A stretch of DNA of 54,155 bases, from positions 1-54,155 of IMG/VR virus record IMGVR_UViG_3300022602_000132, one strand, 5' to 3'. How positions within the stretch are numbered: position 1 is the first letter of the stretch; each line of letters begins with the position of its first letter. The DNA comes from a virus. Both the position numbers and the translations under genes were made by a program. Under the pieces are notes generated by a model that did no database searches, was not told where the DNA came from, and was given only the letters and a program-made list of their open reading frames with translations. Positions 14,225 through 50,182 of the stretch are shown one piece after another.

Positions 14225-16954
14225 ATGGGATTTTTTGTAAAGAAGGATAGTTCTACTTGGACTAAATCCACGGGCTTCTTTGTAAAATCTGCAAATGGTT
14301 GGAAAGCAATAACAAATGCTTTTGTAAAAACAGCAACTGGATGGATTCAGTTTTGGCCAAAAGCTTTGGTATCTGATTCTAATGCTACAATTTCAATAAC
14401 CACATCTAATTATTTAATTACTCTTGTTGGAACAAATTATCATTGGACAAGCTCTTCTGCTGTTACATTAACTTATGATTTTCAATGGTCAACAGACAAT
14501 ATATCTTGGTTATCTATGTATACAGGCACAACACCAAATGGATTGTCTGGGTCACAATCAATGTCAAACCCATCATCTGGATCAAGCAATACTGTAACAT
14601 TTCCAATATCTAGTGCATCAAGTTTTGTTCAATCAGATGCAACTAACTATTATCAGTTTGTGGTTTATGCAAGTGCGGGTGGCGAGACAGGTTCTTCTTC
14701 TGCTGTAACAAATTTTGTTGGACCAACAACTCCAAGTTTAACTGCAACTTTACAATCTAATGGGTCAATTAAGCTTACACCTTCATCTTATGGTTCTGAT
14801 GCAAGTTTTAGTTATTATAGGTACGATAATTCATTAGGTTATTATGTTCAACTTAGTGGTTCAATAGATGGATCACCTCAGTCTGGCACCAACTCATATG
14901 AAGTATATGGATGGACAGGGCCGAGCCAAAATGGTTATCAAAGCAATAACTCAATCCCAGCCAACGCTACTTCAGCAACATTTTATTGTTTAACCCAAAC
15001 TCAAGCATTTCCAGGATATCCTTCAACCTGTTCCTGGACACACGCATCGTATGATCAGTCTGGATCAGGTACGGGCTATTCTACATCTTGTCAAATAAGT
15101 ACATATCCATCAAACTCAACTTGTATTTATCCATTATCAAATCCAGGAGGCGGGGATACAAGTTATACTGCAGATTATAAGTGCACAGCAGCAGTTATAG
15201 CATATCCAAACTTTAACTGTTTTTATATAGAATCTCAAACTAATCCAAATAATAGTTATACTTGCAACTACGCAAGTCCAACCTATCCTACTGTAAATGG
15301 TTGTGGTGGCAGAACAACTCAGAACCCTCAATTAGGAGATGCAACATCAATTGTTAATGGAACTCCAGTGGTCACTACAACTACTGTTCAGTATCCAATT
15401 TGTACTGATGGATCAGTCACTACAGATTCAGGCGGAAACCTGAAATATAATTCGGGAACTTACACAACATATTATAATGTTGTAGTTACAGCAACTCCAC
15501 AATTTATTAGTGGTGATGGACAGCAAACCCCATATATGGATACTACATATTATCCTCCAACTCAGCATTATGTGAATGAGTCAACTTATTACACGACTGC
15601 CAGTGCTTCTCAACTATGTAATGGCGGTTGTGGATATGCACCTACATCAACCAGTTCAACAGCTGTAAATTTGGACTTGTCTTCTAATGGAACAGATTAT
15701 CCAGGAACAGAGTCGGGTTGTACGGATTCTTCGGGTAATTTTAATACTAATGGAACATACTATACAGTTATGTCGTATGATACTTATGCTTATCCAGTTA
15801 CAAATTTATGTACAAATACAATTGTAGCTTATGTTAATCCATACAACGTAGTATTATCTAAAACTAGCACACAATCTTGTGGAAAATGTGGTTATACCTG
15901 TCAGTGGTACTGCACAACAAGTACTCAGTGTGCTGGTACGGGAAATTGTGGATATACTACTCCAGGATACGATGCTTCTGGAAGCGGAACTGGGTATAGT
16001 ACAGCATGTTCATATAACGGAACTGCAACATATCCAACTTGTGCTTCAACAAGCTGCCCAACATATTATTGCACTAAAGAAGTAGATGCTTATCCCTATT
16101 ATAGTTGCTATTACACAAGTGGATATTCTTCATCAGTTTCTGGATATACATGCCAGCTAAACAGTTATCCTGTAGTTGGAAATTGTACCTATCCTAATAA
16201 CTCAGGAACCCTAGGTCAAACACAAAATACTCAGGTGGCATCACCTTCACCAGTTGTTGCACAAAATACTCAGGTGGCATCTCCACCTGCACCAGTTCAA
16301 AATACTCAGGTTCCAGCACCAGTTTCCAATGGTGCTCCACCAATTCCAGCACCAGTTCAGCAAACACAAAATACTCAGGTGGCATCTCCACCTGCACCAG
16401 TTGTTGCACAAAATGCTGGTGTGCCACCAGTTGTTGCACAAAATACACAAAGTACACAGATTACGGGCGGATGTTTTGTGTATGGAACTCAAATTCAAAT
16501 GGCAGACGGTTCATGGCAAAATATTGAAGACTTGTATATTGGAGACGAAGTAATGGCAGCTATTGTTCCTACAGTTCCAGATATTGAAGATCCAGCAGCA
16601 GACTACATTTATACTTGGTCTGCAAACAATATTGATGGGACAACAAAGAGTTCAGCATACGTTACAAACGTTGTAAATAGAGCATTTACATCATATTACC
16701 TTATCAATGACGAGGTTAAGGTAACATTTGAGCACGTTGTTCCAGTACAACAAGATGGTGTATGGAGATTTATAGAAGTTCTTGCAATTAATGTTGGAGA
16801 CAACATAATGGATGAAAATCTAAATATAGTGCCAGTTAAATCAAAGGAGCTTATACAGGACCTAGTTCAAACAACATCTATATCTATGAATGAAAGAGAT
16901 ATTTATTTTGTTAAGGGTATGATGGCTCACAACTCACAAGCAGTAGCTAAGTAA
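14225..16954 (+). CDS. Cys-rich tail fibre protein with Pro/Gln repeat and C-terminal Hint domain (909 aa)
   Basis: A multi-part surface protein. The N-terminus has three short FVK-W units (GFFVKKDSSTW, GFFVKSANGW, AFVKTATGW). An Ig-like part follows to about residue 250. Residues of roughly 255-660 are very rich in Cys, Tyr, Ser and Thr and contain an internal duplication (SGSGTGYSTSC/SGSGTGYSTAC units near 15065 and 15980). About residues 665-745 are a Pro/Gln/Ala/Val repeat (NTQVASPPAPV). Residues 750-903 form an intein-like Hint domain: Cys750 after GG, T834/H837 in TFEH, and H902-N903 before Ser904. Only six residues (SQAVAK) follow. Many Cys suggest disulfides formed outside the cell. 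A 2OG oxygenase gene follows after 10 bp. The fibre role is from context; the Hint domain is clear by motif. Confidence 0.85.
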   Translation: MGFFVKKDSSTWTKSTGFFVKSANGWKAITNAFVKTATGWIQFWPKALVSDSNATISITTSNYLITLVGTNYHWTSSSAVTLTYDFQWSTDNISWLSMYTGTTPNGLSGSQSMSNPSSGSSNTVTFPISSASSFVQSDATNYYQFVVYASAGGETGSSSAVTNFVGPTTPSLTATLQSNGSIKLTPSSYGSDASFSYYRYDNSLGYYVQLSGSIDGSPQSGTNSYEVYGWTGPSQNGYQSNNSIPANATSATFYCLTQTQAFPGYPSTCSWTHASYDQSGSGTGYSTSCQISTYPSNSTCIYPLSNPGGGDTSYTADYKCTAAVIAYPNFNCFYIESQTNPNNSYTCNYASPTYPTVNGCGGRTTQNPQLGDATSIVNGTPVVTTTTVQYPICTDGSVTTDSGGNLKYNSGTYTTYYNVVVTATPQFISGDGQQTPYMDTTYYPPTQHYVNESTYYTTASASQLCNGGCGYAPTSTSSTAVNLDLSSNGTDYPGTESGCTDSSGNFNTNGTYYTVMSYDTYAYPVTNLCTNTIVAYVNPYNVVLSKTSTQSCGKCGYTCQWYCTTSTQCAGTGNCGYTTPGYDASGSGTGYSTACSYNGTATYPTCASTSCPTYYCTKEVDAYPYYSCYYTSGYSSSVSGYTCQLNSYPVVGNCTYPNNSGTLGQTQNTQVASPSPVVAQNTQVASPPAPVQNTQVPAPVSNGAPPIPAPVQQTQNTQVASPPAPVVAQNAGVPPVVAQNTQSTQITGGCFVYGTQIQMADGSWQNIEDLYIGDEVMAAIVPTVPDIEDPAADYIYTWSANNIDGTTKSSAYVTNVVNRAFTSYYLINDEVKVTFEHVVPVQQDGVWRFIEVLAINVGDNIMDENLNIVPVKSKELIQDLVQTTSISMNERDIYFVKGMMAHNSQAVAK
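16222..16460 (+). repeat. In-frame Pro/Gln/Val repeat inside the Cys-rich fibre gene
   Basis: Degenerate in-frame units built on the codons for QNTQVASPPAPVVA. A 37-bp segment at 16261-16297 recurs exactly at 16366-16402, and a shorter copy starts at 16222. The repeat encodes an extended Pro-rich linker between the Cys-rich part and the Hint domain. Identical copies imply recent slippage or recombination. Confidence 0.85.
16472..16933 (+). other. Hint (intein / BIL-like) autoprocessing domain, 154 residues
   Basis: This is residues 750-903 of the fibre protein. The first residue is Cys in GGCFVYGTQI (block A, with IEDLYIGDEV after it). Block B is VTFEHVVPV with Thr and His. The end is DIYFVKGMMAHN followed by Ser, matching the terminal His-Asn plus nucleophile of inteins. 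The length matches a mini-intein without a homing endonuclease. Whether it splices, or only cleaves and rearranges as bacterial intein-like domains do, cannot be read from the sequence. Confidence 0.82.
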
Positions 16955-16964
16955 GGGGAATAAA

Positions 16965-17543
16965 ATGGAAAAAGAAGTAATTGGAGAAAAAATAGTAGTT
17001 TACAAAAACTTAATAGATGGTGAACAAATAATTAAAGATGCATATGCGTTGTCATCTAAATTTCAATTAAAGTGGACTACTGGTGTTATTAATGAGGGGG
17101 TAGTTGATAGAAATGTGAAAAGCTGTTCAATCATTAACCTGCATGATAACGCAGCCGATTCAAGAGATCTGTATCGTGAAAAGAATAAAATTACTAGAGT
17201 GCTAGATGAATCATTTGGTCCTGCTATGATGGATTACGCAAAAACATATGGCTTTAGAGTAAAGCAAAAAGAAGGTTGGGAATTTATGAGGTATGAAGAG
17301 ACTGAGAAATTTGATTTTCATACTGATCAGTCAGAATTTCATCCTTGCGAAATATCAATGGTTGTTTATCCTAATAGTGATTATGAAGGTGGCCAGATGC
17401 AATTTTTTAATTACATGGACGGGTACCCATGGAAACCTGTTGCAAATAGCATAATCTTTTTCCCATCAACTGCAGACTATAGACACAGAGTGCTTCCAGT
17501 TACATCTGGAACAAGATATTCAATTATTAACTTCGCTTTTTAG
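16965..17543 (+). CDS. 2OG/Fe(II)-dependent oxygenase, prolyl-4-hydroxylase-like
   Basis: A double-stranded beta-helix dioxygenase that would couple oxidative decarboxylation of 2-oxoglutarate to hydroxylation of a substrate. Iron ligands are His119-Thr-Asp121 and His174; the 2OG-binding Arg is Arg184 in SGTRYSI. The YEGGQMQFF strand and the IIFFPS strand are typical of P4H-like enzymes. At 192 aa it is a minimal catalytic domain with no signal peptide. It lies 10 bp after the Cys-rich, Pro-repeat fibre gene behind AAGGGG, so the two are likely co-transcribed, and the fibre is a plausible substrate. The substrate could also be a free amino acid or a host protein. Confidence 0.88.
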   Translation: MEKEVIGEKIVVYKNLIDGEQIIKDAYALSSKFQLKWTTGVINEGVVDRNVKSCSIINLHDNAADSRDLYREKNKITRVLDESFGPAMMDYAKTYGFRVKQKEGWEFMRYEETEKFDFHTDQSEFHPCEISMVVYPNSDYEGGQMQFFNYMDGYPWKPVANSIIFFPSTADYRHRVLPVTSGTRYSIINFAF

Positions 17544-17578: not shown

Positions 17579-17800
17579 ATGGCTAAAACGTTAGAAGGAA
17601 TTCCAGACGACTGGAAATGGATTGCACTTATTATAGATGATGAGATAGTATCCAAAATGGCTTGGGACCCAAGGCTTGCATCAATCCTTTTGAGTAACCC
17701 TCAGATTGTTGATGTTACAGATATTTGGGATCAGGTTCATGAAGGATTTAAATTTGATGGCAAAGATTTTATACCGAATGGAGAAGAAGTTGAGTGGTAG
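17579..17800 (+). CDS. Small acidic hypothetical protein (73 aa)
   Basis: An unrecognised 73-aa acidic protein rich in Trp (DDWKWIALIIDD, MAWDP, DIWDQVHEGFKFDGKDF). It has no Cys or membrane segment. There is no ribosome binding site, but a good promoter ends 5 nt before the ATG, so the start is set by leaderless transcription. Its 3' end overlaps the next gene by 23 bases in another frame, which supports both being translated as a pair. Confidence 0.75.
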   Translation: MAKTLEGIPDDWKWIALIIDDEIVSKMAWDPRLASILLSNPQIVDVTDIWDQVHEGFKFDGKDFIPNGEEVEW

Positions 17801-18068
17801 AGAGTGGGATAACCTCCCAGAAGAACAGAAGCGTGTAGCTCGTCCTTGGGATATTTTAGATCCCAATATGCCAAAGGTAACTGAAAAAATCCGTAAAGAG
17901 CGAATTGATGCTTGCATGGGTTGCGAAAACTTAATCAAGTTTACAAAGCAATGTAAAAAGTGTGGTTGTTTTATGAAGGTTAAGAGCAATATTCCATGGG
18001 CATCCTGCCCTATTGGAAAGTGGGATGCTGTGGCGGACGAGCCAGTAAATAACCCACCAGTGGTATAA
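17778..18068 (+). CDS. Small zinc-finger protein, CxxC...CxxC type
   Basis: A 96-aa protein starting at ATG 17778 inside the end of the previous gene; longer frames upstream only add out-of-context residues. The C-terminal half has CMGC, then CKKCGCFM, then WASCPIGKW, a cysteine pattern fit for one or two zinc sites. The N-terminal half (NLPEEQKRVARPWDILDPN) is charged. Proteins with this CxxC-CKKCGC-CPxGKW layout are recurrent small phage proteins without a known role. Binding to DNA, RNA or protein is possible; nothing in the sequence decides it. Confidence 0.75.
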   Translation: MEKKLSGREWDNLPEEQKRVARPWDILDPNMPKVTEKIRKERIDACMGCENLIKFTKQCKKCGCFMKVKSNIPWASCPIGKWDAVADEPVNNPPVV

Positions 18069-18364: not shown

Positions 18365-18559
18365 ATGGAAAAAGCAGAATTAGTTATTACTGCTCTACAA
18401 CAACGCATCGGTGAAATGGCAGCTCAATTTGAGCTAGAAAAAGCTATGTTAAGAGCAGAGTACACAGAACTTTTAAATAAGCATGAAGAATTAAATAAAC
18501 AAATTTCACTTGAAGAATACTCTCAGGATGTTTCTGATAAAGCGGGAATTAAAAATTAA
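18365..18559 (+). CDS. Small coiled-coil protein (64 aa)
   Basis: Unrecognised. Nearly the whole chain is predicted helical by eye (LQQRIGEMAAQFELEKAMLR, then LLNKHEELNKQISLEEY), with many Glu, Leu and Lys. It has no Cys. It sits between the preceding 81-aa helical protein and the glycosyltransferase-oxygenase fusion gene 8 bp downstream, so it belongs to the same transcript. A role as a partner of the modifying enzymes is possible but untested. Confidence 0.7.
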   Translation: MEKAELVITALQQRIGEMAAQFELEKAMLRAEYTELLNKHEELNKQISLEEYSQDVSDKAGIKN

Positions 18560-18567
18560 GTAGATAT

Positions 18568-20064
18568 ATGATATATGTTTCTATATGTTCATACAGGGAT
18601 CCGTTACTACAATCAACAATAAATGATTTATTTGCAAAGGCAGATAATCCAGATAATATATTTGTTGGTTGTTTTATTCAGACTTCAGATAAGTATTCAG
18701 ATCACAACAGCTGCCTAGTTGAAGAAAGAAAAAATCTAAAGTTTGAGATTGGCATTCCTGGAGAAACATTTGGAATAAATATTTGCAGAAATAAAGCCTT
18801 GCAATGGATTGGCTCAGAGCACGAATTCGTTTTTCAAATGGATTCGCACATGAGGTTTAAGCAGGGCTGGGATACAAAGATTATTGAGTCCTATAAGTCT
18901 TTAAATAATGATAAAGCTTTAATAAGCACAACTACTACACCTTGGTATATAAATGAAAACCTTGAAGAGGTATATAATAGTGATGACAACATAATCACTA
19001 TACAAGAATTTAATAATAAGTATGCTGAAGATTGTTTTAAAAAGTTTTATGAATTTATTCCAGAAGGGATAAGTTTTGATGCCAAGTCTGATTTTCATAA
19101 AGGCTGGTATTTATGTGGTCATTATATATTTGGAAAAGCTAATTATTTTATAGAAAATCCTCAAGAAGAGTGGATATTATTTTGGGGCGAAGAATTAATC
19201 AATAGTATTAAGGCATTTATAAATGGCTGGGATGTATATGTTCCAGCTAAAAAATATGCTTACCACATGTTCCCTCAGCATATGACGCATACAAAATTAA
19301 ATAAAATATGGAATGATTTTCCTGAAAACTGGAAGCCAATGCAAATGGAAACCAATAGAAAAATAATTGGTTATTTAAATAGTCTTGATAAAAAAGAAAG
19401 ATCATATGACGATCTTGTAAAAATGCTTGGATATGATATGAGGCAGCTTTTTAATTTATGGTACAATGATGTTGTGCGTGAGGAGAAGAATGTGGATAGC
19501 GAAATAATATTTGAAGAGCTTGCACCAGGAATAATATCTTTTAAAAATGTTTATCCCAGATTAACCAACTTGCTTGAACATGTAATAGAAGCAGAAACAA
19601 AGTGGCTTCCTGCTCAAGTTTTAATAGACAATGCTATTTCTGGAGAAGATTATAGTCAAAGAAATACAGATATGATTCCTATGAGAAGTCAAGAAAATCC
19701 TCATATTATAAATTTTGCAGAGACATTCCATAAAGAAATCTGGCCATACATAGATGCATACCAAAGGCAATATGGTGCACACATAGAGTCAGTAGAAGAG
19801 CCTCAGCTGCTCAGGTACGGAGTCGGACAAGAATTTAAAAATCACATAGACGATCATCCTAAAATAGGAGTTAGAAGAATATCTTTAAGTTATTATCTAA
19901 ACGATGACTATGAAGGAGGAGAAATTCTTTTCCCTCGATTTAATGTTTCTATTAAACCAGAAGCAAATCAGCTAGTAATATTTCCATCAAACTTTGTATT
20001 TAATCATACTGTAATGCCAGTAACAAGTGGTACAAGATATGCGGTAGTTCAGTGGATGTGGTAA
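18568..20064 (+). CDS. GT60-like GlcNAc transferase fused to a P4H-like 2OG/Fe(II) oxygenase (498 aa)
   Basis: A bifunctional enzyme. The N-terminal half (about residues 1-290) is a GT-A glycosyltransferase resembling the GlcNAc transferase family of Skp1 modification (GT60). It opens with IYVSICSYRDPLLQSTINDL and has FQMDSHMRF, where Asp92-Ser-His94 takes the place of the DxD metal site, then WD. The C-terminal domain (about 310-498) is a 2OG/Fe(II) oxygenase with His426-Ile-Asp428, His480 and Arg490, and strands YYLNDDYEGGEILF and LVIFPS. In Dictyostelium a P4H hydroxylates Skp1 and a GT60 enzyme adds GlcNAc to that hydroxyproline; here the two activities are joined. The gene is followed with no gap by another oxygenase. 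The substrate is unknown. Confidence 0.87.
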   Translation: MIYVSICSYRDPLLQSTINDLFAKADNPDNIFVGCFIQTSDKYSDHNSCLVEERKNLKFEIGIPGETFGINICRNKALQWIGSEHEFVFQMDSHMRFKQGWDTKIIESYKSLNNDKALISTTTTPWYINENLEEVYNSDDNIITIQEFNNKYAEDCFKKFYEFIPEGISFDAKSDFHKGWYLCGHYIFGKANYFIENPQEEWILFWGEELINSIKAFINGWDVYVPAKKYAYHMFPQHMTHTKLNKIWNDFPENWKPMQMETNRKIIGYLNSLDKKERSYDDLVKMLGYDMRQLFNLWYNDVVREEKNVDSEIIFEELAPGIISFKNVYPRLTNLLEHVIEAETKWLPAQVLIDNAISGEDYSQRNTDMIPMRSQENPHIINFAETFHKEIWPYIDAYQRQYGAHIESVEEPQLLRYGVGQEFKNHIDDHPKIGVRRISLSYYLNDDYEGGEILFPRFNVSIKPEANQLVIFPSNFVFNHTVMPVTSGTRYAVVQWMW

Positions 20065-20616
20065 ATGAATAATGATATAAGGCTTTATGAAAGTTTTTTG
20101 TCAGAAGAAGAATGTAAATATTTTATTGATTTTGCATTGAATTCAAATAATTGGTCTTCTGGAGGTAAAGACTGGGAAGATAGAATTTTGTTTTTCGAGC
20201 ATTTAGATCCCGATAGCCCAGTAAGAGAAAAAGCAATGGTGATTGCTAGTAAAATTAAAGATAAAATAATCAATGATTTTAACATCAGGGATATATGGCC
20301 AGATACAATACATGTTGTAAGGTGGCCAGAAGGCTCCGTGCAAGAACCACATGCCGATTCTGTATGGCAGGACGGCACCCCTAACATATCCTCTTGGAGA
20401 AGCTTTGGATCAATTATTTATCTGAATGATGACTTTGATGGTGGAAAAACTTATTACACTAATTATGAGTATGAGGTTGAACCAAAAATAGGCTCTTTAT
20501 TAATACATTCTGCAAATCTAAAATCAACGCATGGTGTTACTCAGGTAGGTGGCGGGACAAGGTATACAATAGCTTCTTTTTGGACAACAGACGTTTCGAG
20601 AAGTGTAAACGGGTAA
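20065..20616 (+). CDS. 2OG/Fe(II)-dependent oxygenase, P4H-like
   Basis: A 183-aa catalytic domain. Iron ligands are His96-Ala-Asp98 and His156; the 2OG Arg is Arg166 in GGTRYTI. The core strand IIYLNDDFDGGKTYY and the segment KIGSLLIHSA are typical of the prolyl-4-hydroxylase-like group. The ATG follows the stop of the GT-oxygenase fusion directly, so translation is probably coupled. No targeting signal is seen. A long loop (WQDGTPNISSW) between the HxD and the next strand differs from its neighbours, so the substrate may differ too. Confidence 0.88.
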   Translation: MNNDIRLYESFLSEEECKYFIDFALNSNNWSSGGKDWEDRILFFEHLDPDSPVREKAMVIASKIKDKIINDFNIRDIWPDTIHVVRWPEGSVQEPHADSVWQDGTPNISSWRSFGSIIYLNDDFDGGKTYYTNYEYEVEPKIGSLLIHSANLKSTHGVTQVGGGTRYTIASFWTTDVSRSVNG

Positions 20617-20626
20617 AGGTCATTTG

Positions 20627-20635
20627 TGATATAAT
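20627..20635 (+). promoter_or_regulatory. Extended -10 promoter, leaderless
   Basis: TGA-TATAAT with TATAAT at 20630-20635. The ATG at 20643 lies 7 nt after it, where transcription should begin, so the mRNA would be leaderless. It also fixes the start of the next gene. Confidence 0.6.
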
Positions 20636-20642
20636 GGTTATT

Positions 20643-21182
20643 ATGAATCCAGTAGTAAGAAAAAATATCTTAAATGAAGATGATTTTTCTGTGCTGCTAA
20701 ATTATATTTCCAGCCATCCAAATATTAAAGATAATAACTATGATGGGTATGGCAGAAAACTAATAGGTGGAAATGGTTCGGGAGTCTTAGAAAGCCTTCA
20801 TAATAAATTAACTGATCTTGCGAGAGAAATATTTCAAAGCAAAACTTTGGTGCCAACATACTCTTTATTTGCAGAGTATTCTGGCAAAGATGTACTTTTA
20901 GATAAGCATACAGATAGTAATGCTTGTACATATACAATTGATTTAGTGGTTTATCAAAATAAACCATGGGGGTTGTGGATTAATAATGAAGAGTATATAG
21001 CTTTTCCTAATGAAGCAATATTTTTTATGGGTGAAGACCAGGAGCACTGGAGAGAAGTGAAGCATAATAATGAAGATGTCCTTGGCGTTGTTTTTTTTCA
21101 TTACGTAGAGCCAGATCATTGGTGGTTTACAAAAGGCCCAGAATATGTTGAAGTGATCAGGAGGAATAAAGGGTATGGATAG
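20643..21182 (+). CDS. 2OG/Fe(II) oxygenase-like protein
   Basis: A 179-aa protein with a double-stranded beta-helix pattern: His89-Thr-Asp91 and His135 as iron ligands, between them the strand TYTIDLVVYQ and the turn NEEYIAFPNEAIFFMG. The 2OG Arg of the P4H group is not in its usual place, as the strand after His135 reads LGVVFFHYVEPDHWW, so 2OG binding may use another residue. The frame is open further upstream, but an extended -10 box 7 nt before ATG 20643 makes that the start. It overlaps the next gene by 8 bases. It shares the ending PDHW with that protein, so the two are probably related. Confidence 0.75.
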   Translation: MNPVVRKNILNEDDFSVLLNYISSHPNIKDNNYDGYGRKLIGGNGSGVLESLHNKLTDLAREIFQSKTLVPTYSLFAEYSGKDVLLDKHTDSNACTYTIDLVVYQNKPWGLWINNEEYIAFPNEAIFFMGEDQEHWREVKHNNEDVLGVVFFHYVEPDHWWFTKGPEYVEVIRRNKGYG

Positions 21183-21879
21183 TTTTGAGCCAGCATCAAT
21201 TAAAAATTTTTTACCAGATGACATGTTTGAAAGAGTAAAAGAAAAGGTTCTTTCTAAAAACATGGGTCCACATGGTCCTCATTTTTATCATACTGTGATA
21301 GGACGTTGGCTTACAGATATATCTTTTGATGATGAAATTGAAAGCTTTATTCTGAATAAAGTAAGAGATTATTTTAATGAACCAGACTTGGTAAGAGCTG
21401 GTGTTCATACTGCAAGATATCAAATGCAGAATGGAGTGATTCCTCAATTATGGAAGCATTATGATCAGTCAGCATGCCAGTACTCGCTGGACATCTGCAT
21501 AGACAAAAATTTTGATTGGGGAATTTTTGCGGGTGATAAATATTTTGATGAAGAACCCAATTCTTGCGTAATCTTTAGCGGAAATAATCATATGCATTAT
21601 AGACCAGATTACCCTAGCAGGGATGAAAATGATTATGTAACATTACTATTTATGCAATTTACAAAGCCAGACCATTGGATTTTTGAAGGTGAAGATGCCT
21701 TTAAGAAGTATAGTGCTATGGCTGATTTTAAATTCAGGGAAGACTACGGATATTGGGCGCAGCCAGATTATGAAGGAAGAGAAGTATGTCCATGTTGCGA
21801 TTATCGTAGAGTGTTAGATCATGAAGAAGAATATCAAAAAGGCAAAAGAGCTTCAGACTTTCTAAAGAAAATGGAATAA
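21175..21879 (+). CDS. 2OG/Fe(II) oxygenase-like protein with C-terminal Cys cluster
   Basis: A 234-aa protein. His95-Tyr-Asp97 is the likely HxD pair and His139 or His141 the distal ligand (GNNHMHY). The pattern ACQYSLDICID and PNSCVIFSG matches the previous protein, and both share the motif KPDHW/EPDHW after the fold. The C-terminal extension holds CPCC (205-208), which with other residues could bind zinc or form a disulfide. It overlaps the previous gene by 8 bases, consistent with coupled translation. It differs from classical P4H-like enzymes in lacking the GTRY arginine. The substrate is unknown. Confidence 0.72.
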   Translation: MDSFEPASIKNFLPDDMFERVKEKVLSKNMGPHGPHFYHTVIGRWLTDISFDDEIESFILNKVRDYFNEPDLVRAGVHTARYQMQNGVIPQLWKHYDQSACQYSLDICIDKNFDWGIFAGDKYFDEEPNSCVIFSGNNHMHYRPDYPSRDENDYVTLLFMQFTKPDHWIFEGEDAFKKYSAMADFKFREDYGYWAQPDYEGREVCPCCDYRRVLDHEEEYQKGKRASDFLKKME

Positions 21880-34293: not shown

Positions 34294-34975
34294 TGCTGAA
34301 GTTTATCCAATGAATCATAATGTTCCTACTGCAAAAATAAAACAGCTTGGAGTAAAGCGTGATTGGATGCATACAAGTATTTATAACTGCACACCGTTGA
34401 CTTTGGCAAACACTTTTGGTTATGGAGTTTATTTTGATAAAGATATTTCTTTTATCTGGGATGGAGATGTTAGGAATCCAGCACAAGTTTTAAAGGGAGA
34501 ACAGTTCTTTGGACCAGATCGTGGAGGAGGAACAGTTAGTTTTCATACAAATTTAATTTTTAAAACTGATGAGAATACTAGCCTATTAACAATGCCAGTA
34601 CCAAATCAACCATTAAAAGATGCAACTGTTTTAACAACTATACTGTCTACTTCATTTTTTACACAGCTACTGCCCATAGTTTGGAAATTAGAAGTTCCAA
34701 ATAAAGAATATTTTGTTCCAGCAGGAACATGTGTAGGAGCAATATTACCAATATCTGTGGGTAGTTTTCAAAATTCAAGTTTAAATTTTCATAAAGAAGA
34801 AGCTCCAGATCAACATATTCATGCCGATGAATATATAAAGGCTTTAAAAGAAGGTCAAAGACAAGGAAAGTTTTTGCGTTTTTATCACAAGGGTATAGAC
34901 CAAAATGGAAAAGTTATTGGAAAACATGAAGTAAAGAACTTAAGACTAAATGTAAATGAGGCTAAAGATGTTTGA
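34286..34975 (+). CDS. DUF6065-like protein, second copy (229 aa)
   Basis: Paralogue of the protein at 33287. It has YNCTPLTLANTFGYGVYFDKD followed by ISFIWDGDV, then the strand PVPNQPL, LSTSFFTQLLPIVWKL and GTCVGAILPIS, and ends with IGKHEVKNL. The start has a GGGAGG site and overlaps the previous gene by 8 bases. Its end overlaps the oxygenase gene at 34968, so both are probably made together. The family has no known activity. The duplication on both sides of a nuclease gene is unusual. Confidence 0.78.
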   Translation: MYSAEVYPMNHNVPTAKIKQLGVKRDWMHTSIYNCTPLTLANTFGYGVYFDKDISFIWDGDVRNPAQVLKGEQFFGPDRGGGTVSFHTNLIFKTDENTSLLTMPVPNQPLKDATVLTTILSTSFFTQLLPIVWKLEVPNKEYFVPAGTCVGAILPISVGSFQNSSLNFHKEEAPDQHIHADEYIKALKEGQRQGKFLRFYHKGIDQNGKVIGKHEVKNLRLNVNEAKDV

Positions 34976-35822
34976 AAAACTAAGAGTCGCACCACAAATT
35001 GTTGTCTATAAAAATCTTCTTAAAAATTCAGATGAACTAATAGCTTTAATAGAGGACAAAGATAAAAAAAATTCTTTATGGCCTAACTGGGAGCCTTGGT
35101 ATGATCAAGGAGAAAATATCAATCAACTTTTTTCAAGAAGTGAATTTGAACCTGCAGACAATCCAGAAAAAGCAATGCTTAAATATATTTCCGAGGTTTA
35201 TGACTTTATTCAAAAGGATTATATGGATGAGTATTCGGGGGACAAAGGAGTTTGGCCTGATTATATAAGTCAATGGAGTAAAGTCTACGATAAGCTAGAT
35301 CCAATTCATATTAATATATATAAGTATAGCGATGAGCATTTTAGTAAAAAAAATAAAAAAGGTTTGATGCTTGAGTATCATGTTGATGAGATGCCAGAAG
35401 TAAATGAATCCCCTTGGCATCAAATTGCTACTATCACTTTTTATCTCAATGACAATTATGAAGGTGGAGAAATTTGCTTTTATTCTGAAGCAGAAAATAA
35501 GGCCTATAAGTATAAGCCTAAAAAAGGAGATGTCACAGTCTTCCCTTCTGGGGCACCTTTTTATCATGCTGTAGAAAACTTTTCGGGTGCTGATAGATAC
35601 TTTATGAGAATCTTTATTCCTTATTCCACAGAAGGCGATAAAGAGTTTATTGAAAAAAGTGTTTTTTATGATCAAGAGTTTATGAGAAAGCAAGAAGATA
35701 AAATAAATGATTTTGTATCTAAATATACTCATGCTGTTACACTTCAATTTCCAGGGCAACAAGTAGACAAAGTGTATGGCAAGCTGGTACAATTAGATGA
35801 GCAGATTAATATTATAGAATAG
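34968..35822 (+). CDS. 2OG/Fe(II)-dependent oxygenase, P4H-like (paralogue 1)
   Basis: A 284-aa dioxygenase. His138-Val-Asp140 and His200 bind iron; Arg210 in ADRYFMRIF binds 2OG. The core is TITFYLNDNYEGGEICFYS and YKPKKGDVTVFPSG. It shares its N-terminal pattern (xPxxVYxN) and fold with the genes at 35830 and 37380, so the three are paralogues. ATG 34968 fits a GAGG site 5 nt upstream better than ATG 34956. A C-terminal extension of about 60 residues (FYDQEFMRKQEDKIND) is shared by all three and may bind the substrate or a partner. Confidence 0.88.
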   Translation: MFEKLRVAPQIVVYKNLLKNSDELIALIEDKDKKNSLWPNWEPWYDQGENINQLFSRSEFEPADNPEKAMLKYISEVYDFIQKDYMDEYSGDKGVWPDYISQWSKVYDKLDPIHINIYKYSDEHFSKKNKKGLMLEYHVDEMPEVNESPWHQIATITFYLNDNYEGGEICFYSEAENKAYKYKPKKGDVTVFPSGAPFYHAVENFSGADRYFMRIFIPYSTEGDKEFIEKSVFYDQEFMRKQEDKINDFVSKYTHAVTLQFPGQQVDKVYGKLVQLDEQINIIE

Positions 35823-35829
35823 GTTTATT

Positions 35830-36720
35830 TTGGATAAAATAGTTATAGAGCCAATGATACATGTGTATCAAAACGTGTTTTACAATATTGATGATATTTT
35901 TAATTTTGTAAAAAGCACAGAAGAATATAAAGAGAATACTGGCATGCTAGAAACTTGGCAGGAGTGGGCGGGATTTTGGAAGGGCGGGGCTTTAAAGACA
36001 GAAAGTCGTAAGCTAAGCAACAATCCTACAGAAGAACAGAAAAAGTATATAGGAGAGATCGTAGATGCTTTTTTAAAAGTCTCAAAAGATTATTTAAATG
36101 ATTACAAGAACAATGATGCTTGGCCAGATTTTATTGAAGACTGGAGCAACCTAGATCAGCACCCTTGGAGAAACGATACTTATATTGATTTTTTAAAGTA
36201 CAATAAAAATCAACCCGAGCATCTGGCAGATAGTTTAATTGCAATGAATTATCATACAGATTTTGACAATTTTGATAAGGAATCTGCAGATAATAAAAAA
36301 GTAATTACTGTAACTATTTACCTTAATGATAATTATGAGGGAGGTGAAATATCTGTATATTCACCTGAAACTGAAAAAATTTATAACTATAAGCCCAAGG
36401 CAGGTGACATTGTTGTATTTCCTTCAGGAATGAATTATTACCATGGTGTCTTATCGTTTTATGGAAATGACAGATATTTGGTCAGAATGTTTAAAACATA
36501 CGAGTATGCTGGCTCAGAGGAATGGTTGAAGAATAAACAATTCTATGGTGAAGATGTCTGGGAAAGCATGGAAAAGAAAAGATTACAGCATGCTTGGGAG
36601 AACGGATATAACTTAGTAAAAATGGTTTTTTCAGATAAAAGTTTGGGTAACCTAAACTTAAATGAAATACAGATAAAAGAAGATCCAATTTATATAGACG
36701 GGACAAAAAATGATAACTGA
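35830..36720 (+). CDS. 2OG/Fe(II)-dependent oxygenase, P4H-like (paralogue 2)
   Basis: A 296-aa dioxygenase with His142-Thr-Asp144, His205 and Arg215 (GNDRYLVRMF), core TVTIYLNDNYEGGEISVYS and YKPKAGDIVVFPSG. The start is TTG 35830; it is supported by alignment of the N-terminus (VIEPMIHVYQN) with the paralogues' (VAPQIVVYKN, VIPKVVIYHN). Ribosome site support is weak. The 3' end overlaps the next small gene by 11 bases. Two Trp-rich stretches (TWQEWAGFWKGG, HPWRND) before the core are not shared with smaller P4H enzymes and could shape the substrate pocket. Confidence 0.88.
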   Translation: MDKIVIEPMIHVYQNVFYNIDDIFNFVKSTEEYKENTGMLETWQEWAGFWKGGALKTESRKLSNNPTEEQKKYIGEIVDAFLKVSKDYLNDYKNNDAWPDFIEDWSNLDQHPWRNDTYIDFLKYNKNQPEHLADSLIAMNYHTDFDNFDKESADNKKVITVTIYLNDNYEGGEISVYSPETEKIYNYKPKAGDIVVFPSGMNYYHGVLSFYGNDRYLVRMFKTYEYAGSEEWLKNKQFYGEDVWESMEKKRLQHAWENGYNLVKMVFSDKSLGNLNLNEIQIKEDPIYIDGTKNDN

Positions 36721-37379: not shown

Positions 37380-38324
37380 ATGATTGATAAAACAGTAGTA
37401 ATCCCAAAGGTAGTAATCTATCATAATGCACTAGAGAAGGTTTCTGGCATTCTAGAGCTTGCTAAAAATGGACAAAACCATGAGGATTCGCATGGAATAA
37501 TGCAGGGAATAAGTCCTTGGGGTTACTACGGCACTCTTATACAGGTAAGAAATTATAATCATGATATTCTTGAAAGCGATTCAAAAGAAGAAATCAATCA
37601 AAAAGAACTATTAAACTCTTTGTATGATTCTTTTGATGATGTTGTTATGGATTATATAAGTGAGTACAAGGATTCTGGTGGGTGGCCAGAGTATATAGAT
37701 CCCGAGCATATTGATGGTTTGGGAGACTATAAGAATAATCAATTTTGGAATTCTAGCTGGCTATCCTTTTTAAAGTATCACCCTAGAGATTATGTCTTAG
37801 ATAATTTAAATCGTGAGTCTGGAGATAAGAAAAGATTTGCTATGGAATTTCATACAGATTATGATGAAAGATTTTCTGAGATTCCAGAATCAAAACCGTT
37901 TATAACTGTGACTGCTTATTTAAATGATGATTATACTGGCGGTGAGATTTGCTTTATTGATGAGGTTACTGGTAAGCTATATTCTTATAAACCTAAAGCG
38001 GGCGATATAACAGTTTTCCCCTCTTCAGCACCGTATTGGCATGGAGTGTTGCCAGCCTATGATTCCGAAAGGCACCTGATTAGAACATTCCTTATGTACA
38101 ATTATCCAGGAGATAAGGAAGTTATAAATAAGTATGGAAAACAAGATACTGATTTTTGGACAAAATTTAAAAAAGAAAAGTATCAAGAGTTAGAAAAAAC
38201 TAATGATCCTAAATACATGTTGACTCTTGTATTTTTGCCAGGAGAAGAAGTTAATGTTGATGAAAAAGAATATAGAAAAGTTATATCAATTAAAGAAGGA
38301 CCTATAAAAGTTGGTGAGGAATAA
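37380..38324 (+). CDS. 2OG/Fe(II)-dependent oxygenase, P4H-like (paralogue 3)
   Basis: A 314-aa dioxygenase with His158-Thr-Asp160, His221 and Arg231 (DSERHLIRTF), core TVTAYLNDDYTGGEICFID and YKPKAGDITVFPSS. N-terminal VIPKVVIYHNALEK matches its two paralogues at 34968 and 35830. ATG 37380 is preceded by AAAAGGATG. It is the longest of the three, with a larger insert before the core. The peroxidase gene separates it from the others, so the cluster was built by duplication with an inserted gene. The end overlaps the next gene by one base. Confidence 0.88.
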   Translation: MIDKTVVIPKVVIYHNALEKVSGILELAKNGQNHEDSHGIMQGISPWGYYGTLIQVRNYNHDILESDSKEEINQKELLNSLYDSFDDVVMDYISEYKDSGGWPEYIDPEHIDGLGDYKNNQFWNSSWLSFLKYHPRDYVLDNLNRESGDKKRFAMEFHTDYDERFSEIPESKPFITVTAYLNDDYTGGEICFIDEVTGKLYSYKPKAGDITVFPSSAPYWHGVLPAYDSERHLIRTFLMYNYPGDKEVINKYGKQDTDFWTKFKKEKYQELEKTNDPKYMLTLVFLPGEEVNVDEKEYRKVISIKEGPIKVGEE

Positions 38325-44460: not shown

Positions 44461-44533
44461 TGGGGTGTAGCTCAGCAGGCAGAGCATTCGACTGTTAATC
44501 GAAGTGTCACAGGTTCGATCCCTGTCACCCCAG
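44461..44533 (+). tRNA. tRNA-Asn (anticodon GUU)
   Basis: A full cloverleaf: 7-bp acceptor (TGGGGTG with CACCCCA), D-stem GCTC/GAGC, anticodon stem TTCGA/TCGAA with loop CTGTTAA, and T-stem ACAGG/CCTGT with loop TTCGATC. Anticodon GTT reads Asn codons. No CCA is encoded. Confidence 0.95.
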
Positions 44534-44537
44534 CTAA

Positions 44538-44611
44538 GGTCCGTTAGTTCAGTCGGTTAGAACGCCACCCTGTCACGGTGGAGGTCAGGGATTCAAGTTC
44601 CCTACGGATCG
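44538..44611 (+). tRNA. tRNA-Asp (anticodon GUC)
   Basis: Cloverleaf with acceptor GGTCCGT/ACGGATC, D-stem GTTC/GAAC, anticodon stem CCACC/GGTGG with loop CTGTCAC, and T-stem AGGGA/TCCCT with loop TTCAAGT. It lies 4 bp after tRNA-Asn on the same transcript. Confidence 0.95.
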
Positions 44612-44770
44612 CAAGGCAACACTTGTATTGCTTCTCAATGGTTGGAAGTTTACGCAAGTATCTAAGTGGACGCTAGCACGACTTAGACGGTATCATCGGA
44701 ATACTCGGTTACGAGACCTTACAGTGTGGTGAAAGATAAACTGATCCGATACATTATTAACAAACTAACA
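44612..44770 (+). ncRNA. Non-coding stretch with possible RNA structure between tRNA genes
   Basis: About 160 nt with no reading frame of note. By eye it can form AGTTTA (44647-44652) with TAAACT (44737-44742), a 7-bp hairpin TCTAAGT/ACTTAGA (44661-44667/44681-44687) and CTCG/CGAG (44704-44707/44712-44715). GTATC (44690-44694) can pair with GATAC (44748-44752), which would cross the first helix as a pseudoknot. It lacks a T-loop, so it is not a tRNA. It may be a processed small RNA or only a spacer. Confidence 0.3.
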
Positions 44771-44777
44771 GAAAGAG

Positions 44778-44783
44778 TATAAT
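44778..44783 (+). promoter_or_regulatory. -10 box TATAAT that decides the start of the next gene
   Basis: TATAAT at 44778-44783 directly abuts an ATG at 44784. Transcription from it would begin about 44790, which is itself an in-frame ATG, so the 44784 ATG cannot be on this mRNA. Confidence 0.5.
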
Positions 44784-44789
44784 ATGAAT

Positions 44790-45020
44790 ATGATGGCAGA
44801 AAAGACAGAAGAAGTTAAGTCTTATGTACTTGGACCACAAGATCGTTGTGACTCATGTTCTGCGGAAGCTTTAGTTTGGGTGAACGGCGTGGCGGGAGAG
44901 TTGCTATTCTGTGGTCATCATTATAATAAGCATGAAGAAAAGCTTAAAGATTATGCATTTGAAATTGTTGATGAAAGAGATAAGCTGATACAAAATAGAG
45001 CAGTTGGATCTGAAAACTAA
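44790..45020 (+). CDS. DUF7455-like zinc protein (76 aa)
   Basis: A small zinc protein with DRCDSCSAEALVWVNG, GELLFCGHHYNKHEEKL and a helical end with IVDERDKL. This DRCDxC ... ELLFCxHH layout is that of a short actinobacterial family (DUF7455), which speaks for an actinobacterial host and for host origin of the gene. ATG 44784 is also in frame, but the -10 box ends at 44783, so a leaderless start at 44790 (or 44793) is more likely. The biological role of the family is unknown. Confidence 0.82.
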   Translation: MMAEKTEEVKSYVLGPQDRCDSCSAEALVWVNGVAGELLFCGHHYNKHEEKLKDYAFEIVDERDKLIQNRAVGSEN

Positions 45021-45028
45021 ATAGTTTT

Positions 45029-45103
45029 GCTCTAGTAGCTTAATCTGGTTAAAGCATTAGTCTTATATACTAACGAGTGTCAGTTCAAATCTGACCTAGA
45101 GTA
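45029..45103 (+). tRNA. tRNA-Ile (anticodon UAU, reads AUA)
   Basis: Cloverleaf with acceptor GCTCTAG/CTAGAGT (first pair G-U), D-stem GCTT/AAGC, anticodon stem TTAGT/ACTAA with loop CTTATAT, T-stem GTCAG/CTGAC with loop TTCAAAT. The anticodon TAT reads AUA directly, without lysidine. AUA is frequent in the genes of this AT-rich window and is usually rare in actinobacterial hosts. Confidence 0.9.
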
Positions 45104-45104
45104 C

Positions 45105-45178
45105 GGAGCATTAGCTTAGTTGGTAAAAGCCCCGAACTCATAATTCGGTAATCCTCAGTTCAAGTCTGAGATGCTCCA
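45105..45178 (+). tRNA. tRNA-Met (anticodon CAU; elongator, Ile2 not excluded)
   Basis: Cloverleaf with acceptor GGAGCAT/ATGCTCC, anticodon stem CCGAA/TTCGG with loop CTCATAA, T-stem CTCAG/CTGAG with loop TTCAAGT. The first pair is G-C and the anticodon stem lacks the three G-C pairs of initiators, so it is not an initiator tRNA. A lysidine-modified Ile2 tRNA cannot be excluded. Confidence 0.9.
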
Positions 45179-45197
45179 CTTAAATGAAAAGGAAAAA

Positions 45198-45760: not shown

Positions 45761-46345
45761 ATGCCCTTTAAAGATATGTCTAGTATAAAGATATTGGGGG
45801 ATGAAATATATGTATACGAAAACTTTTTATCCAAAAAAGAATTAAGTAAAATAAATAATAAATTAAATAATATACCAGAAGAGCTTTGGAGCAAGATGTG
45901 GGATGCAGAAGGACAAGTTCCAGATGTTAGTCCAAAGATGAGAATAACTAAAAAAATAATCAAAAGATTAAGTAAAAAGGTAAATGGACTTAATGTAAAT
46001 ATAAATGAAGTTTTTAGCAAAATGAAAACTGGAATTAGCTGGGGAGAACATGCTGATAATGCAGACTTTTTGGCGATAAGAAAATTATCTAAAACATTAA
46101 AAGATAAAGAAAAATTTAAGCTTGTTAAAAATTCAAAATATGGTGTTGTTCTTTATATAAACGATGATTATAAAGGTGGGGAAATATACTATGTTGGTCA
46201 AAATATATCTTATAAGCCAAAAGCTGGAGACCTAGTAGTTCATAGTTCAGAGGAAAAATGTAGACATGGGGTTAAACGTGTCACTTCTGGTGTAAGATAT
46301 GCATGGTCAAGTAATTTGCATGAATTACTAAGGATTCCAGAATGA
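45761..46345 (+). CDS. 2OG/Fe(II)-dependent oxygenase, P4H-like, behind a structured leader
   Basis: A 194-aa dioxygenase: His97-Ala-Asp99, His169 and Arg179 (SGVRYAW), core VVLYINDDYKGGEIYY and YKPKAGDLVVHSS. It is very rich in Lys and Asn in the N-terminal half (KKELSKINNKLNNIP). It starts at ATG 45761 with AGGAG and is the first gene after the structured RNA at 45622-45742, which may control its translation. The final ATGA overlaps the next gene, which encodes a cupin-fold protein that may act with it. Confidence 0.88.
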   Translation: MPFKDMSSIKILGDEIYVYENFLSKKELSKINNKLNNIPEELWSKMWDAEGQVPDVSPKMRITKKIIKRLSKKVNGLNVNINEVFSKMKTGISWGEHADNADFLAIRKLSKTLKDKEKFKLVKNSKYGVVLYINDDYKGGEIYYVGQNISYKPKAGDLVVHSSEEKCRHGVKRVTSGVRYAWSSNLHELLRIPE

Positions 46346-49415: not shown

Positions 49416-49488
49416 GCCTTCGTAGCTCAGTGGATAGAGCATACGGTTTCTACCCGTCAGGTCGGGAGTTCAAATCTCTCCGAGGGCA
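49416..49488 (+). tRNA. tRNA-Arg (anticodon UCU, reads AGA)
   Basis: Cloverleaf with acceptor GCCTTCG/CGAGGGC, D-stem GCTC/GAGC, anticodon stem TACGG/CCGTC (first pair T-C mismatched) with loop TTTCTAC, T-stem GGGAG/CTCTC (G-T at one position) with loop TTCAAAT. The anticodon TCT reads AGA, a codon favoured in this AT-rich phage. Its 3' half is antisense to the end of the minus-strand oxygenase gene. Confidence 0.88.
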
Positions 49489-50182
49489 CTATACTTTCTT
49501 GAAGTGTCTTCATTCTCTCGTTAGTTGAGAATTGATGTAGGTACGAGAAATGATCTGGATGGCTTGGGTCATAAGGATCTTCGTTTGAAATATGATGTTT
49601 AAATAAATTATTATCAACATAAAATTTAGAGCGTATGATATTAGAGTGAGTATATCTTATGCCAGATTTGACAGGATTGACTCCATGAGGAGTTTCTACA
49701 CAATGTACTACTAAGTCTCCTGAAATAGCTTTATAGTTAATTCCATATTCAGGATAAGATATTTCTCCTCCTTCGTAATCATCATTTAAATAAATTATAA
49801 ATGCCAAAGGATTTAGAAGTATTTCTTCTTTATCTCCAATAAAATCTTTATCAACTATCATCTCTAAAAGCGGGTTCATATGATTAACAAAATCAATATG
49901 TATTTTTTGATGATCGCCCCGATATCTTACTTGAATTTCAGATATAGGCTCAAAGTGTATATCTCCTTCAAAACAAGAGCGTAATCTTTCGTCATATTTT
50001 TTTATTGATTCGGGGTATATCTGATGTTGATCTACTGCAGAATTCATGATAGAATCAATCTCTAGTCTTATACTTGATATTTCTTCGGGGGATAAAAAGT
50101 TATGATAAACAAACGCTTCATCATGAAGTTTTTCAAATTTATCATTAAGCTTTATATCCATATGACTAGAAAGAATTGACAT
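49457..50182 (-). CDS. 2OG/Fe(II)-dependent oxygenase, P4H-like, on the minus strand
   Basis: The only minus-strand gene in the window, 241 aa. His95-Ile-Asp97, His166 and Arg176 (SGIRYTH) form the iron/2OG site, with FIIYLNDDYEGGEISY and YKAISGDLVVHC as core strands. The start ATG (50182 to 50180) has GGAG 7 nt upstream. The last ten residues (IVPSERFELPT region) are read from the antisense of tRNA-Arg and the stop lies in the tRNA anticodon-arm region, so the natural C-terminus was probably extended by read-through into the tRNA. It shares a promoter region with the subtilisin gene. Confidence 0.85.
   Translation of the reverse strand: MSILSSHMDIKLNDKFEKLHDEAFVYHNFLSPEEISSIRLEIDSIMNSAVDQHQIYPESIKKYDERLRSCFEGDIHFEPISEIQVRYRGDHQKIHIDFVNHMNPLLEMIVDKDFIGDKEEILLNPLAFIIYLNDDYEGGEISYPEYGINYKAISGDLVVHCVETPHGVNPVKSGIRYTHSNIIRSKFYVDNNLFKHHISNEDPYDPSHPDHFSYLHQFSTNERMKTLQESIVPSERFELPT

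Follow-up and report, generated by a model that had tools for sequence, protein, structure and literature searches.

A GT60 glycosyltransferase–2OG-Fe(II) oxygenase fusion in a recurring phage tail cassette that may modify a Pro-rich tail fibre

The window analysed here, the whole 54,155-nucleotide stretch of IMG/VR virus record IMGVR_UViG_3300022602_000132, encodes a DNA polymerase, a DnaB-like helicase, a primase, a terminase, and a minor tail protein, in keeping with the phage setting that an earlier sequence-only reading had given it. Within it lies a run of genes in the order tail-fibre-like protein, 2OG-Fe(II) oxygenase (2OG), DUF6171 protein, two small genes, a fusion of GT60 and 2OG domains, a further 2OG, and two probable 2OG-like genes (Table 1). 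With eight clear and two probable 2OG-Fe(II) oxygenases, the window carries an unusual density of these genes; similar 2OG arrays lie past a PFFPPFFPP repeat protein in two other loci (L359 and L371). The families phrog_2297, phrog_274, phrog_3531, and phrog_2954, labelled 'DNA endonuclease (V)' or 'ferrochelatase', match 2OG oxygenases here, and judging from these matches the PHROG labels look wrong. Five tRNA genes (Asn, Asp, Ile-TAT, Met, and Arg-TCT) are located at 44461–45179 and 49416–49489.

Table 1. Features of the fusion ORF and its surroundings (coordinates are those of the window).
Feature	Coordinates	Strand	Details
Tail-fibre-like protein, likely substrate	14225..16954	+	909 aa; Pro/Ser/Thr-rich residues about 666–741, C-terminal Hint
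Pro-rich repeat stretch VASPPAPV / PAPV / PPIPAPV	16220..16447	+	Within tail protein
Candidate repeat peptide TQVASPPAPVQNTQVPAPV	within 14225..16954	+	In tail-fibre-like protein
Hint (intein-like) domain	16472..16954	+	Cys750 to His902-Asn903/Ser904; weak Pfam match, Hom_end_hint 3.2e-5
Stand-alone 2OG-Fe(II) oxygenase (P4H-like)	16965..17543	+	PF13640 1.4e-12; first gene past tail protein
DUF6171 protein, Cys-rich, zinc-ribbon-like, cassette marker	17706..18068	+	PF19668 2.6e-6
Small conserved cassette protein	18365..18559	+	64 aa; 44% identical to L364:5274; phrog_10610
Fusion ORF, GT60 + 2OG-Fe(II) prolyl-hydroxylase-like domain	18568..20064	+	498 aa; PHROGs/Pfam/AF2
GT60 (PF11397) GT-A domain	18568..19482	+	Residues 1 to about 305; D92-x-H94, E208/E209, H233
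SD-like GAGGAG and in-frame GTG (codon 309) at domain border	19480..19494	+	Relic or active internal start for the 2OG part
2OG-Fe(II) oxygenase domain	19504..20061	+	Residues about 313–498; H426, D428, H480, R490
2OG-Fe(II) oxygenase directly 3' of fusion	20065..20616	+	PF13640 5.4e-8
Probable divergent 2OG-like protein	20580..21182	+	Contains HTD; phrog_2954 4.2e-14; 51% to L361:7737
Probable divergent 2OG-like protein	21175..21879	+	Contains HYD; phrog_2954 1.7e-8; 62% to L361:8432
Clear 2OGs of the window	16965–17543, 18568–20064, 20065–20616, 34956–35822, 35830–36720, 37380–38324, 45761–46345, 49457–50182(-)		

The reading frame of the fusion is uninterrupted, with neither a stop nor a frameshift across the domain border. 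Its N-terminal half matches the Pfam GlcNAc family PF11397 (E=2.9e-31; 109.7 bits against a cutoff of 21) and its C-terminal half matches PF13640, 2OG-FeII_Oxy_3 (E=6.6e-19; 69.1 bits against a cutoff of 27); in PHROGs, residues 2–256 correspond to the glycosyltransferase family phrog_24687 and residues 311–498 to the 2OG oxygenase family phrog_61. The sequence-only reading had called the N-terminal half GT60-like on the strength of SYRDPLLQSTINDL and a DSH motif, here D92-S93-H94; both features are present, and the PF11397 match upholds the assignment and rules out a GT family other than GT60. Membership of GT60 is indicated by the profile score above the curated cutoff together with the D-x-H motif and a distal His. 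Nine residues (D92, H94, R96, F97, W101, D102, G207, E209, and H233) are invariant in an alignment of 15 sequences, and E208 and most of these nine are nearly invariant across 65 sequences; viral and bacterial GT60s alike retain D-x-H, GEE, and the distal H233. By analogy with GT27, D92, H94, and H233 would form the Mn-binding set. In the C-terminal half the HxD...H triad and basic residue, located exactly where the same reading had numbered them, combine with a double-stranded beta-helix model to identify a 2OG-Fe(II) oxygenase, and the triad and the Arg are also kept in fused bacterial relatives. The best solved relatives by sequence are the bacterial P4Hs 3itq and 5hv0 (2.7e-7). The motif and domain pattern of the ORF is not a product of chance.

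The assignment of both halves also stands in structure prediction. A confident AlphaFold2 model built on a 65-row alignment (pLDDT 83.7, pTM 0.70) has its GT-A half joined by a helical link to a double-stranded beta-helix. Foldseek searches match the 2OG half to Dictyostelium PhyA (6t8m), PHD2, and the chlorovirus PBCV-1 enzyme vCPH (5c5t), with E of 1e-9 to 1e-10 and target TM of 0.6–0.7, so that the closest matches to the predicted fold are P4Hs, as had been proposed from the sequence. An AlkB identity for this half was considered and rejected, its fold matches being P4Hs. The GT half resembles GalNAc-T2 and other GT-A enzymes by fold. The top full-length match to the model in the PDB is human LH3, at a TM-score of only 0.31, indicating a different domain arrangement from that of the fusion. 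Enzymes of the 2OG-FeII_Oxy_3 family have diverse substrates, and the P4H-like fold of the 2OG half leaves the hydroxylated residue unfixed; the choice of proline would rest on the Pro-rich neighbour.

That neighbour, the tail-fibre-like protein, has an N-terminus with 32% identity to a gene of another phage cassette (L364:574) and a 51-residue segment 63% identical to a second (L015:2304). Residues 660–745 (86 residues) contain 16 Pro and 16 Ser+Thr, and its best 30 residues hold 9 Pro, fewer than in most cassettes; collagen-like Gly-X-Y was not seen in this protein. From the cassette association described below, its repeat stretch is proposed as the site of hydroxylation and glycosylation. 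The Hint domain matches those of L025 and L021, and an HMM built here finds it common to the window tail protein, L014, L015, L021, and L025. Hint domains follow Pro-rich stretches also in L014, L015, L021, L025, L332, and L372, a recurrence suggesting that the tail fibre may undergo self-cleavage or ligation.

The 2OG at 16965 resembles cassette 2OGs of L332 and L352, and returned no matches when used alone as bait. The DUF6171 protein is 42–57% identical to DUF6171 genes in other cassettes, and the ORF preceding it (17579–17800) matches the N-terminal part of the one L015 gene that corresponds to it. DUF6171 (CKKCGCFM...CPIGKW) behaves as a marker gene across the window and loci L294–L373, and we found no papers on it in the open-access literature. 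The 2OG directly 3' of the fusion shares 37% identity with its positional counterpart in L364, the gene that immediately follows GT60 there.

The window shares its arrangement with a cassette that recurs in phage tail regions and comprises a Pro-rich repeat protein, DUF6171, 2OG, and GT60. The repeats are of PTPTPT, PPVTPPVT, or PPFFPPFF type, and the Pro-rich protein sometimes also carries Hint. A PTPTP+Hint protein (L332) or a (PT)n protein (L352) is followed in order by DUF6171, 2OG, and GT60; a PPPTT protein is followed by DUF6171, GT60, and 2OG (L364), and a PPVVPPVS protein by DUF6171 and 2OG (L361). A Thr/Pro-rich+Hint protein, 2OG, DUF6171, and GT60 are neighbours in L025, and in L015 a poly-Pro tail protein with Hint is accompanied by DUF6171 and GT60. 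Homologues of the window genes at 20580 and 21175 are carried by L361, and those of the genes at 18365 and 20065 by L364. In L549, L563, L567, L571, and L501 a second cassette lies at about 15–17 kb, roughly 8–10 kb further downstream along the tail region; there a PPFFPFFPP repeat protein precedes one or two 2OG genes. In the cultivated cyanophage S-SCSM1 (L497:2060–3325), the gene for a short tail fibre that contains an insert of RQPR/FRAPFNFRVP-like repeats is flanked by 2OG genes, three on each side, making this phage a possible experimental model.

We measured the association using DUF6171 as a bait that is independent of Pro, 2OG, and GT60 content, and counted an ORF as Pro-rich if any 30 residues contained 11 Pro or more. 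Numbers in this and the following comparisons are small, and they rest on HMMs built here and on removal of redundancy by DNA identity only. Among 55 non-redundant loci, a Pro-rich ORF is present in 25 of the 34 with 2OG/GT60 versus 2 of the 21 without (p=3e-6); where at least 3.5 kb is available on both sides, the counts are 12/17 and 0/8 (p=0.0012). The Pro-rich ORF in most cases begins 1.1–3.3 kb upstream of DUF6171, and the nearest 2OG starts 0.2–0.3 kb downstream of it in 13/17. A structural tail-region gene was used as bait to rule out a simple tail-region effect, and Pro-rich ORFs were present in 14/16 loci with 2OG/GT60 versus 0/5 without (p=0.001). At a cutoff of 12 or more Pro within 30 residues, Pro-rich genes are likewise more frequent in viral GT60 loci than in random viral loci (12/558 versus 1/761; p=2.4e-4). 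The reverse bait, PTPTPTPT, gave a modest enrichment of GT60/2OG (9/93 versus 2/98; p=0.02); Pro-rich proteins occur in many contexts, and the strong direction is therefore from cassette to Pro-rich protein. These data point to a widespread phage cassette with a Pro-rich tail fibre as its likely substrate, which the sequence-only reading had overlooked.

GT60 and 2OG domains are also joined in bacteria, where 8 of 80 GT60 loci encode both on one ORF, seven in the GT-2OG order (L113, L134, L139, L119, L112, L125, and L136) and one reversed (L140). Like the window fusion these proteins carry PF11397 and PF13640, but unlike it they often have several GT60 copies and longer linkers, and in trees they fall in different lineages. 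Bacteria fused the two families independently of the phage, and the recurrence of the fusion counts as Rosetta-stone evidence for a functional link between the two activities. Six of these loci (L112, L119, L125, L134, L136, and L139) are alphaproteobacterial and encode proteins of 1300–2200 aa with several GT60 domains and a 2OG domain; the 605-aa protein of L113 adjoins a gene pair resembling a two-partner secreted adhesin. We know of no function for any of the bacterial GT60-2OG proteins.

We lean, with some reserve, towards a two-domain enzyme that hydroxylates and glycosylates, in GlcNAc-type fashion, the phage's own Pro-rich tail fibre. The fusion would be made in the infected cell as a modification enzyme acting on the Pro/Ser/Thr-rich stretch of the tail-fibre protein before virion assembly, its 2OG-Fe(II) domain hydroxylating prolines there and its GT60 domain attaching a sugar. 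The sugar is most likely alpha-GlcNAc from UDP-GlcNAc because of GT60 family membership (PMC6939170, PMC8724618). The fusion would represent a joined version of a cassette usually encoded as separate genes. Hydroxyproline is our leading but tentative candidate for the GT acceptor, fitting the Skp1 precedent and the fusion itself, with Thr/Ser, in line with the (PT)n repeats seen where GT60 occurs without 2OG, the next and similarly tentative choice; Ser/Thr is present in the repeats of some GT60 cassettes and almost absent from those of others. In many phages a GT60 cassette combines (PT)n repeats with no 2OG gene that could be detected, and since many cassettes encode just one of the two enzymes, hydroxylation and glycosylation need not go together.

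Alternatively, the tail protein could undergo two independent steps, GT60 acting on Thr/Ser and 2OG on Pro for stiffness or stability, with the fusion merely co-localising them. GT60 does include Thr/Ser GlcNAc transferases, such as the T. cruzi pp-alphaGlcNAcT acting on mucins, and the GT half folds like the Ser/Thr enzyme GalNAc-T2. (PT)n-type repeats predominate in GT60 cassettes, the median of Ser+Thr in the best 40 residues being 13 for GT60-only and 10 for GT60+2OG versus 6 for 2OG-only cassettes (p=0.056), and the Ser+Thr content of the window's own Pro-rich stretch agrees. We nonetheless regard independent steps as rather unlikely: some GT60 cassettes have repeats nearly without Ser/Thr (FFPP in L009 and PPPDPG in L015), hydroxylase fusion in phage as well as in bacteria is consistent with a sequential reaction, and the Hyp-specific Skp1 Gnt1 also belongs to GT60 (PMC6939170). 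A target elsewhere, either a host surface glycan or protein or a nucleic acid in AlkB-like repair, is the least probable reading we considered. AlkB is a 2OG enzyme, helicase genes adjoin some phage 2OG genes, and a review grouped cyanophage P4H-domain genes with repair genes (PMC2984593); against this are the P4H fold matches of the 2OG half, its kinship to 2OGs adjoining Pro-rich tail genes, the protein targets of characterised GT60 relatives, and the statistical link of 2OG/GT60 to Pro-rich tail proteins.

The fusion might also be functionally meaningless, the product of a stop codon lost in the genome or through contig error, with the 2OG still made from the GTG at 19492. The domain border coincides exactly with the sequence GAGGAG-AAGAAT-GTG, an arrangement otherwise uncommon (an SD-like site precedes 5 of 329 internal starts in long ORFs), and the starts of stand-alone 2OG proteins align next to this GTG. 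Model confidence drops below pLDDT 50 in the linker (residues 308–311), and the phage fusion is seen on one contig only. We consider this reading improbable: consensus errors are rare in such contigs, no stop or frameshift interrupts the border, and independent GT60-2OG fusions exist in bacteria. The occurrence of both families on one chain in Alphaproteobacteria likewise argues against the sequence-only reading's concern that an assembly error alone had joined the domains. A chimera of unrelated genomes was rejected, both flanks matching the same kinds of phage. The proposed modification of the tail fibre by the cassette would remain the reading even if the fusion did arise from a lost stop.

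The two halves have separate origins. The GT60 half groups with stand-alone phage GT60s of L015 and L364 (SH-aLRT 99), and the 2OG half is sister to the stand-alone phage 2OG L361:7105 (SH-aLRT 97; 44% identical), from which it follows that the window joins parts that are separate in related phages. The fusion looks like a recent join of two neighbouring cassette genes, and the border SD and GTG are plausibly a relic or an active internal start, from which the 2OG part may additionally be made alone. A second 2OG-fused viral GT60 ORF was found neither among the 102 others of our first viral set nor in the DUF6171-baited set, in which L362 has DUF6171 fused to GT60. Nor was the same fusion found in cultured phages, whose GT60s (in XacN1 and two Stenotrophomonas phages) are all unfused; single-protein scans for relatives returned only GT60 relatives from viral contigs and none from genomes. 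The sequence-only reading knew of no phage equivalent, which holds for cultured phages and the other viral GT60 ORFs, although the architecture itself recurs in bacteria. The fusion is a rare local variant; of the two findings, the cassette that recurs among phages carries more weight.

2OG-Fe(II) oxygenases are common unexplained genes of aquatic phages. Our 2OG search matched 320 records, nearly all of cyanophages, labelled as DNA repair, ferrochelatase, or endonuclease, and no description of a phage cassette of Pro-rich tail protein, P4H, and GT60 was found in the open-access literature. The link to Pro-rich tail proteins and GT60 gives phage 2OGs a specific, testable function, tail-fibre hydroxylation and glycosylation, which if true would apply to many abundant phage enzymes. 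We judge the chances to be evenly balanced that tailed phages widely build hydroxyproline-rich, glycosylated (extensin- or mucin-like) tail appendages through a dedicated system of a Pro-rich tail protein (often with a C-terminal Hint domain), DUF6171, one to several 2OG prolyl hydroxylases, and GT60, occasionally fused. Phages would then be using the chemistry of plant cell walls and the protist Skp1 pathway to make the host-contacting part of the virion stiffer, better protected, or more variable, and GT60-2OG fusions would serve as compact tools for making glycosylated Pro-rich peptides.

Among the closest known systems is the Skp1 pathway of Dictyostelium and Toxoplasma, in which PhyA (a P4H) and Gnt1 (GT60) act in turn (PMC6939170, PMC8724618). 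The families are the same, a PHD2/PhyA-type 2OG oxygenase and GT60, and they are linked on one chain here and within one cassette in other phages. However, PhyA and Gnt1 are separate eukaryotic cytosolic proteins that modify one Pro of Skp1 in O2 sensing, whereas the window has one phage chain, lacks Skp1, and offers a Pro-rich tail repeat as the likely target. Human LH3/PLOD3 and mimivirus L230, the latter a characterised viral enzyme (PMC9546862), likewise combine hydroxylase and glycosyltransferase in a single polypeptide and modify a repeat protein. These act on collagen lysine with another GT family, and sequence kinship is limited to the 2OG superfamily; with PF11397 as its GT and a neighbouring tail protein in which no collagen-like Gly-X-Y was seen, the fusion would work alike but is not of their type. 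The T. cruzi polypeptide alpha-GlcNAc transferase is also GT60, and its Thr-rich mucin repeats resemble the phage (PT)n, but its acceptor is Thr and hydroxylation is not needed. Plant and algal extensins and AGPs follow the same logic, with (TP)n, (AP)n, (VP)n, and PPVx repeats modified by P4H and glycosyltransferases, although the latter are of GT31, GT8, and GT96 types and the substrates are secretory-pathway proteins (PMC8724618). It is probable that phages modify their tail proteins by hydroxylation and glycosylation in much the same way as plants and protists modify theirs.
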